A stretch of DNA of 49,191 nt, taken from Fidelibacterota bacterium. Its GTDB lineage: Bacteria > Fidelibacterota > UBA8477 > JABMPR01. The notes beneath the pieces were generated by a model that saw nothing but the letters and a program-made list of their open reading frames with translations, searched no databases and was not told the DNA's origin. The translations under genes were made by a program, and so were the position numbers. This document shows positions 38,062-41,424 of this stretch, piece after piece; within the stretch, counting starts at the first letter, position 1; each line of letters begins with the position of its first letter. The stretch covers positions 1 to 49,191 of the forward strand of contig JAIPGJ010000007.1 of NCBI GenBank assembly GCA_021736185.1. Direction: 5' to 3'.

Positions 38062-39384
38062 TCATGAATCGTCATTTTCAACGGAGAGTAAATCATCCTT
38101 GCTGAAAAATCTGTGGAGCACCTTGATCATCATTTCATGATCTTTGACCCCGGTAGTCTCTCGAATAGAATGCATGGATAGCATGGCATTCCCCACGTCA
38201 ACCACAGGGATACCTAAGCCAGTGGCTGTAATCGGTCCAATGGTGGATCCACAGGGTAAATCCGTTTTATGCACATAATGCTGAACCGGAACATCCACTT
38301 CCTTAGCTAATTGTTCAAAAATAGCTGAGGTGAAGGCACTGGTTGCATAGCGATGGTTTGCATTATGCTTTATCACAGGTCCCCGGTTCATTTTGACCGC
38401 ATGTTGGGGGTCATGGAAGTCTGCATAATTAGGATGAATGGCATGGGCTCCATCTGCTGAAACACAGGCGCTATTGGCCAGGGCCCTTTGTATCTGGTGA
38501 TTTAACCCATCAGAACTAACGACGCGAGTAATAATATCACGTATGAATCCAGAGGCTGCACCATTTTCGGTTGAGCTCCCAATTTCCTCATTATCGAACA
38601 AGGCAATCATGGCGGTCTGGGGTGCAGAAAAAGCCTTGGAGGTCAGGGCCTGAATGGAAGCGTGGCACATGGCCAGATTATCAATTCTTCCGCTCACAAT
38701 GAACTCATCGTTGAGACCACTGAGATTTGCGGTCTGCGTATCATAACATTCTAACTGCCAGCTGGCGATTGATCCCCGCTCAACCTGCAAGGTGTCTGCA
38801 ATGAGACCTTCAAGCAGTCGGGTATCAAGTTTGGAACCATCTGTGCTTTCGAGAGCCAGTATGGGGGGCATGTGTGTTTGTTTATTTAACTTCAACCCAA
38901 GCTCATTCACTTCTCTATTCAAGTGAATGGCCAGCTGAGGTATTCTAAGCAATACTTTATCAGATTTGAATGGGACCACCTTGAGTTTCCCAGCCTGCTT
39001 GAGGATAACCCTGCCAGCCAGGGAAAGGTCACGATCGGTCCAACTGGCCAGCAGCGGACCTCCATAAATCTCGACTCCAAGTTGGATATAGCCACTCTTA
39101 GAATACTGGGCTTCAGTTTTGAGGTGCAGCCCCGGTGAATCGGTATGGGCCCCAACCAGGCGAACTCCAGTCAGTTCCCCACTCCCCATTTGCCAGGCAG
39201 CCAGGGCGGATTGACTGCGAATGACATAGTATTTCATATTGGGTTTTAAGTCCCAGGCTTCTTTTTCATCCAATTGAGTAAATCCGTGGAACTGGAGTGC
39301 CTCTGCAGCAGTCAAAACAGCATTATAGGCTGTAGCACTTTTATCTAGAAAGTTAATTAGATCTGTTATTGGAGATATGGTCAT
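38062..39384 (-). CDS. apeB: M18-family aspartyl aminopeptidase
   Basis: A zinc aminopeptidase removing acidic N-terminal residues. The 440-residue product has the M18 motifs: GAHTDSPGLHLKT (metal-binding His and Asp), a FDNEEIGSSTENGAAS segment with the catalytic Glu, the HAIHPNYADFHDPQHAVKMNRGP stretch and a late HYVHKTDLPCGSTIGPITATGLGIPVVDVG. No signal peptide is seen, so it is cytoplasmic. It starts at an ATG with AAAGGAATC upstream. It is separated from the SRP RNA by 120 nt and lies next to the tnpA element. Confidence 0.93.
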   Translation of the reverse strand: MTISPITDLINFLDKSATAYNAVLTAAEALQFHGFTQLDEKEAWDLKPNMKYYVIRSQSALAAWQMGSGELTGVRLVGAHTDSPGLHLKTEAQYSKSGYIQLGVEIYGGPLLASWTDRDLSLAGRVILKQAGKLKVVPFKSDKVLLRIPQLAIHLNREVNELGLKLNKQTHMPPILALESTDGSKLDTRLLEGLIADTLQVERGSIASWQLECYDTQTANLSGLNDEFIVSGRIDNLAMCHASIQALTSKAFSAPQTAMIALFDNEEIGSSTENGAASGFIRDIITRVVSSDGLNHQIQRALANSACVSADGAHAIHPNYADFHDPQHAVKMNRGPVIKHNANHRYATSAFTSAIFEQLAKEVDVPVQHYVHKTDLPCGSTIGPITATGLGIPVVDVGNAMLSMHSIRETTGVKDHEMMIKVLHRFFSKDDLLSVENDDS

Positions 39385-39469
39385 GATGATTCCTTTTTCA
39401 TATCATTGCATTTCAAATTACTCAACCCCAAGGGGGTGAAAATTATATAGTCTGAGTTTTGCTCCGTTT

Positions 39470-39952
39470 TTAAACCCTGGAAGGGTGACATTCTTCTACC
39501 CATTCGAATAGATATTTATCTTCGTGTTCAATTTCATATTTTCTCAAAAACTCATGATATTCTTCCTGGAAAGATGTTTTCATGTGATGCCTCTCCTGAT
39601 CCAGGATATATTCATATACCCGATTAACCTGGGATTTGCCATAGGAAAAGGTCCCAAATCCAGCTTGCCATGAAAATTTACCCCTGACATAACCTTGATG
39701 ATTTATAAAATTAGTGGAATTATTTTTCACATCCCGCACCAAATCTGATATAGCTATAGATGGTTTCAGCCCCACAAAAATATGAACATGGTCAGAGACA
39801 CCATTAACGATGATTGCTTTTTGTCCTTTACCTTTGATGATCCCAGCTATGTATTTAAATACTTCATCTCGCCATGGTTTAAGAAGCATATTTCTCCGTC
39901 CTTTGACAGCGAAAATAATTTGGATATACAACTGTGAATAGGTACCGGCCAT
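39470..39952 (-). CDS. tnpA: IS200/IS605-family Y1 transposase (TnpA-like)
   Basis: The 160-residue protein is a Y1 HUH single-strand transposase. It has a YIQIIFAVKGR first strand, the HUH-type metal motif DHVHIFVG near residue 53, an ISDLVRDVKNNSTNFINHQG helix, GKFSWQAGFGTFSYGKS and the catalytic Tyr in VYEYILDQERHH. All core motifs look intact, so it may be active. Its ATG overlaps the stop of an upstream 36-codon frame as TGATG. It interrupts the space between apeB and dprA and could alternatively act as a REP-associated (RAYT-like) transposase moving the adjacent hairpin repeats. Confidence 0.92.
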   Translation of the reverse strand: MAGTYSQLYIQIIFAVKGRRNMLLKPWRDEVFKYIAGIIKGKGQKAIIVNGVSDHVHIFVGLKPSIAISDLVRDVKNNSTNFINHQGYVRGKFSWQAGFGTFSYGKSQVNRVYEYILDQERHHMKTSFQEEYHEFLRKYEIEHEDKYLFEWVEECHPSRV

Positions 39953-40062
39953 CAGCTCAGCTCTGTCATCCTTTCAGGATTCTCTTTGACTGGGTATCGA
40001 TCCATGCTACTGTCCTTACATCCCTTCGGGATTATTGTAGCAATATAAATAGGTCCGGCCAT
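39952..40062 (-). CDS. Short frame coupled to tnpA (repeat 2 into repeat 1)
   Basis: A 36-codon frame begins with MAGPI and ends with MDRYPVKENPERMTELS. Its TGA overlaps the tnpA start by one base (TGATG). The internal ATG at 40005 has AAGGA 7 nt upstream and could start a 17-residue version. I know of no matching family; it may be a leader for tnpA translation rather than a functional peptide. Confidence 0.4.
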   Translation of the reverse strand: MAGPIYIATIIPKGCKDSSMDRYPVKENPERMTELS

Positions 40063-40172
40063 CAGCTCAGCTCTGTCATCCTTTCAGGATTCTCTTTGAC
40101 TGGGTATCGATCCATGCTATTGTCCTTACATCCCTTCGGGATTATTGTAGCAATATCAATAGGTCCGGCCAT
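40062..40172 (-). CDS. Short frame coupled to the next repeat (repeat 3 into repeat 2)
   Basis: Another 36-codon frame differs from the tnpA-proximal one by two residues (Asp for Tyr, Asn for Ser). It likewise ends in TGA overlapping the next ATG. The internal ATG at 40115 again follows an AAGGA site. Coding status is uncertain. Confidence 0.35.
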   Translation of the reverse strand: MAGPIDIATIIPKGCKDNSMDRYPVKENPERMTELS

Positions 40173-40279
40173 CAGCTCAGCTCTGTCATCCTTTCAGGAT
40201 TCTCTTTAACTGGGTATCGATCCATGCTATTGTTATTACATCCCTTCGGGATTAAAGTGGTAATATAAATTGTGACCAT
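40172..40279 (-). CDS. Outermost short frame of the repeat ladder
   Basis: This 35-codon frame starts at an ATG at 40279 outside the repeats, reads MVTIYITTLIPKG, then runs into the shared MDRYPVKENPERMTELS end. Its stop overlaps the next start as TGATG. It diverges from the other copies in its first half; the AAGGA site of the internal start is changed to TAATAAC here. Coding status is uncertain. Confidence 0.3.
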   Translation of the reverse strand: MVTIYITTLIPKGCNNNSMDRYPVKENPERMTELS

Positions 40280-40326
40280 GTTCTGTATCTTCAATTTCAA
40301 ATTAGGTATTTCTGGAGATCGATTTT

Positions 40327-41424
40327 TCAAAATCTTCGTTTAAAATATTTTCCAGGTAATTGTTGGATAAGACCCTTCATTTCAAGTTGAAGCAAGGTCC
40401 CCAGCAGTGCGAAAGTAGTTTGCTCGGCCAGGCTGGCCAAATCATCAATATGGATTTCTTCAGTGGCCGAGAGGTGTTCAAGGACAGCGGTTTCTGCGGG
40501 ATCGGCGGCGATCAGGAGTTCCTGCTGACCCTGGGAACTGCCCATTTTGTATTTCCCGCCCAGCTCTTCAAGTATATCATCCACGCTTTCAACCAGTTTT
40601 GCGCCCTGTTTGATTAATAGATGGCTTCCCCGACTTTGGCGACTATTGACCGGTCCCGGCACAGCAAAGACTTCCCGGTTTTGATCCAGGGCAAAATAGG
40701 CTGTAATCAACGAGCCGCTGCGCTCTGCGGCTTCTATGACGATGGTGCCCAGGGAGAGCCCTGAAATGATTCGATTGCGGCGGGGAAAGTTTTGGGCGTC
40801 AGGTTTGCTGCCCATGAGGAATTCTGAAATGATCAAACCTTTTTGGGAAATCTCATGGTAAAGCTGTCTATTCTCTGCTGGATAAACGCGATCAACACCA
40901 TTTCCCAGAACTGCGATGGTCGAGCCACCCTCCTTCAGGCAGGCTTCGTGTACCAGGGAGTCAACCCCCTTGGCTGCACCAGATATGATGGTCAGACCAT
41001 TTCTGGCTAAATCTCTGCTAAACTCCTTTGATATTTCTCGACCATAGCTGGTAGGGGTTCTGGTCCCCACCATGCCAATACCATCTGATTTGAGAAGATC
41101 AATGTTTCCCCGACAAAACAGGGCGATGGGCGGATCATAAATTTGCTTCAAGCGCTCAGGATAGGAATCGTCCCAGATTGTTACCATTTCCACTTGAAAT
41201 TTATCTATCAGCTTTGCCTGACCGGCAATAAGTTCTTCATCTGCATTCTGTAAAATGGCTCTGGCTGTTTTATCTTTTATACCGGGAATTCGAGTCAGCT
41301 CCAGATAACTGGCTGAAAATATGTTGTCCAATGTGTCGAATTGTGAAATGAGGTCTAGTGTTTTCCGGGGACCGACGCCAGGGATGCTAAGAACCCTGAT
41401 AATATTGAACAGATTACTATTCAC
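40327..41424 (-). CDS. dprA: DNA-processing protein DprA
   Basis: DprA protects incoming single-stranded DNA and loads RecA on it during natural transformation. The 365-residue product has an N-terminal HhH segment (PGVGPRKTLDLI, IPGIKDKTARAIL) and the Rossmann-like core with VGTRTPTSYG, ISGAAKGVDSLVHEA, AVLGNGVDRVYPAENRQLY, ISEF and FPRRNRIISGLS. A C-terminal winged-helix domain follows (IDDLASLAEQTTFALLGTLLQLEMKGLI). The start is a GTG at 41424 inside the end of obgE (8-nt overlap). Confidence 0.96.
   Translation of the reverse strand: MNSNLFNIIRVLSIPGVGPRKTLDLISQFDTLDNIFSASYLELTRIPGIKDKTARAILQNADEELIAGQAKLIDKFQVEMVTIWDDSYPERLKQIYDPPIALFCRGNIDLLKSDGIGMVGTRTPTSYGREISKEFSRDLARNGLTIISGAAKGVDSLVHEACLKEGGSTIAVLGNGVDRVYPAENRQLYHEISQKGLIISEFLMGSKPDAQNFPRRNRIISGLSLGTIVIEAAERSGSLITAYFALDQNREVFAVPGPVNSRQSRGSHLLIKQGAKLVESVDDILEELGGKYKMGSSQGQQELLIAADPAETAVLEHLSATEEIHIDDLASLAEQTTFALLGTLLQLEMKGLIQQLPGKYFKRRF

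Follow-up and report, generated by a model that had tools for sequence, protein, structure and literature searches.

TnpA-Y1 subclass 1.2 has been reported with no REP listed and generally no IS200-type ends, as given in the part of the survey of Quentin et al. (2018, PMC6006769) available to us; this absence is a reported property of the subclass and not the basis of its classification. We analysed a stretch of 49,191 nt, the window, in which dprA (40327-41424) and the M18 aminopeptidase gene pepM18 (38062-39384) enclose a single Y1 transposase gene, tnpA. Its product scored 61.3 bits against the NCBIfam model NF033573 (IS200/IS605 transposase, cut-off 55), and solved structures gave three weak hits (best E 0.00056), all of them chains with no fuller name than 'transposase'. 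The motifs read off the translation, DHVH, WQ and Y---Q--HH (YILDQERHH), match those that the available text gives for subclass 1.2, and window TnpA would be filed there by motifs only. The likeness extends to a short protein, a low copy number (one match for tnpA in the window's assembly, which has 161 contigs and is 88.95% complete) and relatives that are largely Bacteroidetes. In contrast to subclass 1.2, for which the available part of the survey lists none, the window gene is flanked by inverted hairpins.

Three tandem copies of a 110-nt unit lie upstream of tnpA, and each copy keeps a short frame open. The gene, the copies and the frames, which are probably by-products, are located as follows.

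39470-39952, minus strand: tnpA, Y1 (HUH) transposase of 160 aa (PF01797, 7.1e-23; NF033573; motifs in translation)
39945-40054, minus strand: tandem copy nearest tnpA, its low end containing the tnpA start
40055-40164, minus strand: middle tandem copy, 98% identical to the copy at 39945-40054
40165-40274, minus strand: outermost tandem copy, AAGGA changed to AATAA, 90% identical to the copy at 39945-40054
39952-40062, minus strand: open frame of 36 codons, its TGA overlapping the tnpA ATG by 1 nt; probably a by-product
40062-40172, minus strand: open frame of 36 codons; probably a by-product
40172-40279, minus strand: open frame of 35 codons with its ATG at 40279; probably a by-product

A first-pass annotation had described three 110-nt repeats upstream of the minus-strand tnpA with their frames of 35-36 codons, and we found this description to be correct, with the copies at 39945-40274. 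As it had also reported, each TGA has its A in common with the next ATG (TGATG), the last stop overlaps the tnpA start, and an AAGGA site is lost in the outermost copy. The last overlap is with the tnpA ATG at 39952; AAGGA precedes an in-frame inner ATG in the two tnpA-proximal copies and reads AATAA in the outermost. The annotation took the 110-nt period to be the very length that preserves the stop-start overlap. We found that the inner ATGs match 15 of the first 16 tnpA bases, with one T missing (inner starts ATGGCCGG-ACCTATT versus the tnpA start ATGGCCGGTACCTATT, with AGAGCTGAGCTG ahead of each). Since the inner starts copy the tnpA start sequence, the duplication took the tnpA start and its TGATG with it, and the period was not 'chosen' to preserve the overlap. 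The 110-nt repeat is certain; the three frames are one event that was copied and are not independent events.

Open frames of this kind arise readily in shuffled sequence. Among 20,000 dinucleotide shuffles of the 110-nt unit in which its ATG and closing TG were kept fixed, the same frame was open in 7.1% and some frame in 20.4%. The further conditions of the ladder, a TG before the ATG and a period that is 2 modulo 3, are likewise not rare. Codon differences between the two inner copies were 0 synonymous and 2 amino-acid changing, and those between the outermost and the middle copy 2 synonymous and 6 changing, one changed codon of the middle copy entering both counts; the expectation from all single-base changes is 60 synonymous to 226 changing. 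These inter-copy differences give no sign of a conserved peptide, the numbers being small and the substitutions too few for a firm test. Selected coding of small peptides was considered and set aside, as the frames had no Pfam or NCBIfam match and the copies differ mostly by amino-acid changes.

Each 110-nt copy also carries two GAA-loop hairpins (AATCCCGAAGGGATG and AATCCTGAAAGGATG), in agreement with the first-pass annotation, and two inverted hairpins were read from the sequence on the 3' side of tnpA.

39967-39981, minus strand: hairpin AATCCTGAAAGGATG, repeated at 40077-40091 and 40187-40201
40019-40033, minus strand: hairpin AATCCCGAAGGGATG, repeated at 40129-40143 and 40239-40253
39474-39486, plus strand: inverted hairpin ACCCT-GGA-AGGGT within the tnpA 3' end, tail towards the gene
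39425-39437, plus strand: second inverted hairpin, ACCCC-AAG-GGGGT with TGAAAATTATATAG after it, located downstream of tnpA

In the whole assembly the exact string AATCCYGAARGGATG occurs at the six upstream hairpin sites only; no exact hairpin copy was found away from the array in this assembly, and no 110-nt unit besides the array itself. Across 60 genomes, the window's own included, the unit gave partial matches in three orthologous loci only, and one exact 33-nt string searched in viral contigs had no match. An Rfam scan of the window (39350-40450, by E-value only) placed four weak matches to Acido-Lenti-1 (RF01687) on the hairpins (39953-40253, plus strand), the best at 19.2 bits where the gathering score is 37. 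One further weak match, of 17.5 bits, fell in a relative's locus (L050, 2978-3007, minus strand); scores over the window and L050 together span 16-19 bits. No family reached threshold in the scan of 18 relatives' loci, and with the window matches this weak we rejected a known RNA family as the identity of the hairpins.

Three same-genus orthologues of TnpA, 80-81% identical to it, were found among the 60 genomes searched (own included), and no closer TnpA was present among 245 genomes of the phylum. All three genes sit between dprA and pepM18, and both inverted hairpins at the 3' side of window tnpA have counterparts in them. Upstream, each orthologue carries the two-hairpin unit once, with the first stem reduced to 4 pairs in G006, and a GTG start with AAGG nearby. 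Neither TGATG nor such an open frame was found in any of the three, and stops interrupt the corresponding frame. The first-pass annotation had proposed that the repeats amplify a translation-coupled leader, and had named divergent homologues that keep the hairpins without the frames or the TGATG overlaps as the finding that would count against this. Since the orthologues, each with one copy, keep the hairpins without either, the proposal fails on its own terms.

We then compared 84 loci: the window, its three orthologous loci and, of 98 further loci on genome contigs, the best 80. The relatives' records were named Bacteroidetes, Chlorobi, Ignavibacteria, Chloroflexi, Calditrichaeota and, in one case, as a cyanobacterium. 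The Y motif Y---Q--HH was present in 79 loci; of the five without it, four have cut or shifted frames, and L066 has a different residue at the Y; the HUH motif was DHVH or DHIH in 75 loci and DHTH in 1, and 8 had no DHxH match. Hairpins with a 3-nt loop numbered 260 in 40.1 kb upstream of tnpA and 7.8 in shuffles. Control flanks, which some loci on short contigs lack, had 28 such hairpins in 68.5 kb, so that the hairpin density upstream of tnpA is about 16-fold that of control flanks. At least one hairpin lay within 500 nt upstream of tnpA in 74/84 loci, and 64/84 had a hairpin near the tnpA 3' end or downstream. The conserved core is AAYCCC-GAA-GGGRTGAMATGATTATAG, and 335 GNA-loop hairpins gave the consensus AA[CT]CCC-GAA-GGG[AG]TGA[AC]ATGATTATAG, in which stem pairing and the GNA loop were search conditions and the flanking AA, the TG and the tail were not imposed. 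Orientation was 141 to 56 upstream of tnpA and 26 to 112 downstream; this opposite bias on the two sides indicates that the tails are mostly directed into the gene from both. The first-pass annotation had offered as its other reading REP-like hairpins moved by the transposase, whose copies arose too recently for the frames to have closed. This reading fits these counts and the mostly inverted orientation well; the transposase may move the hairpins, and in the window's genome no exact copy lies elsewhere.

The same loci were examined for the ladder itself. A ladder of frames was found in 1/84 loci, the window alone. Likewise, 1/84 had a frame of at least 15 codons whose stop overlaps the start of tnpA by 1 or 4 nt (shuffles: mean 0.59, maximum 3), and the one other locus with TGATG at the tnpA start, L048, lacks a 15-codon frame. 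Spacing between successive hairpins in relatives was even modulo 3 (31, 37 and 38), and frame-keeping spacing was rejected on this ground. In 58 loci that have a GNA hairpin, 7 to 254 nt separate the end of the last such hairpin from the start of tnpA. Short ATG frames (20-100 codons) ending between -12 and +24 nt of the tnpA start were present in 9 of the 76 loci with 400 nt upstream, where 100 shuffles gave a mean of 4.07 (range 1-9); this roughly twofold excess speaks mildly against a pure by-product reading.

In five loci (L016, L018, L023, L035 and L066) a gene resembling a type I restriction specificity subunit has the element at its 3' end, just upstream of tnpA, and in all of these except L035 a long frame traverses the hairpins and terminates 7-12 nt short of tnpA. 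The Methylase_S assignment was confirmed in L016 and L066; L018 and L023 were assigned by eye from a shared protein end, and L035 by eye from DNA.

The interval between dprA and pepM18 (39385-40326 in the window) was compared in 19 same-genus genomes, the window's own and 18 others. It measures 17 nt without the element in 5 of them, 680-942 nt with the element in 4, and 3-190 nt in the other 10. The element-free intervals of 17 nt suggest that gene and hairpins probably arrived together as one unit. Element-bearing genomes are scattered over the best trees (3 changes), which have weak support, and the test that holds them together gave p 0.124 with 19 proteins and 0.036 with 10 DNA rows. Repeated gain, loss or recombination of the element at this site is possible; precise excision was rejected as a conclusion, because the scattered tree positions are weakly supported and repeated gain or recombination explains them equally well. 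Dispersal was examined in 20 genomes chosen from the 80 loci, 14 of which had exact hairpin-plus-tail matches, 92 in total, and none a match to the reversed control pattern. Of these matches 36 were at most 1 kb from a tnpA hit and 56 were not, and 50 of the latter fell in three genomes, G252 (L063), G258 (L012) and G245 (L005), in tandem in places. These 50 matches away from tnpA hits show that the hairpins can be dispersed like REPs in some relatives' genomes.

We consider it likely, with good confidence, that the locus is an IS200-like or REPtron-like element with hairpins and that the ladder is a by-product of local duplication of the upstream unit. The element would comprise one Y1 gene with short inverted hairpins on either side, inserted between dprA and pepM18. 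By analogy with the subterminal hairpins of IS200/IS605, these are candidate single-stranded-DNA recognition sites of TnpA. The upstream two-hairpin unit would have been tandemly multiplied in the window's lineage together with the first tnpA bases; the copied sequence is observed, and the process may have been, for example, replication slippage at the hairpins. The ladder frames would then arise since the copies have in common one TGATG and one frame open by chance. The stems may have an added role in the mRNA. A striking but probably accidental pattern thus drops off the list of candidate regulatory devices.

The first-pass reading in its selected form would have ribosomes hop from frame to frame via TGATG into tnpA, with the copy number tuning the dose. 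It accounts for the three intact overlaps, for the AAGGA that two of the copies carry ahead of an in-frame inner ATG, and for the mildly raised number of short frames that end close to tnpA in relatives. Further, we saw no clear ribosome-binding site directly before window tnpA; the orthologues, by contrast, carry AAGG close to the GTG start. With AAGGA before the inner start and no clear site for tnpA itself, coupling could work in the window's lineage, and coupled translation there is possible; there is no sign of its selection. Against a selected leader, the ladder is absent from the three orthologues and from all other loci of the 84, the TGATG of L048 lacks its frame, the copies differ by amino-acid changes and hairpin spacing is not frame-keeping, and we regard it as very unlikely. 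A broader reading, which we hold to be decidedly unlikely, is that subclass 1.2 has a hairpin family of its own (AAYCCC-GNA-GGGRTGAMATGATTATAG) with the tail replacing the GTAG guide, with inverted ends and spread in some genomes, and that tandem growth here captured the tnpA start and made a working coupled leader.

Alternatively, the hairpins could act mainly in mRNA, masking the tnpA start or terminating transcription, with extra copies reinforcing repression. Their position close upstream of tnpA in the 58 loci is consistent with this, as is the regulation of IS200 transposase by leader stems, remarked on in PMC3733652. An mRNA role alone fails to explain the inverted downstream hairpins and the hairpins far from tnpA hits in some genomes, and predicted leader folds have no one common structure over the start; we therefore think it unlikely as the main function. 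An artefact of metagenome assembly and binning might be suspected from the many contigs and incomplete genome, yet no two of the three copies are alike, the flank of the outermost is distinct and the orthologue comparison is independent of copy number, which makes an artefact highly improbable.

The element, with the ladder as its probable by-product, can be set beside the known systems as follows. With IS200/IS605 it shares a Y1 transposase, and it may further resemble that family in its inverted hairpins on both sides and in a probable arrival as one unit with no obvious target duplication; it differs in being single-copy in the window's genome and in the several hairpins per side of many relatives. 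Acido-Lenti-1 RNA resembles it through the four weak matches on the window hairpins and the one in L050, but none of these comes anywhere near the gathering score. REPtrons (RAYT or TnpAREP with REPs) are similar in having a Y1 gene flanked by short palindromes that are sometimes tandem and are dispersed in some genomes. In contrast to REPtrons, the window has Y---Q--HH and not the class 2 Y---NP, and where canonical REPs have a GT[AG]G foot the consensus has none, showing the tail ATGATTATAG instead, both as judged from the available part of PMC6006769; nor does the window's genome have dispersed exact hairpin copies. In the library searched, none of the titles listed tied such hairpins to subclass 1.2, and papers matching hairpin strings were unrelated by title. 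A conserved hairpin with a conserved 3' tail thus surrounds a transposase subclass reported without such partners, and its recognition rule is directly testable. Overall, the hairpins seem to be a variant family of a kind already known, and the ladder looks ordinary.
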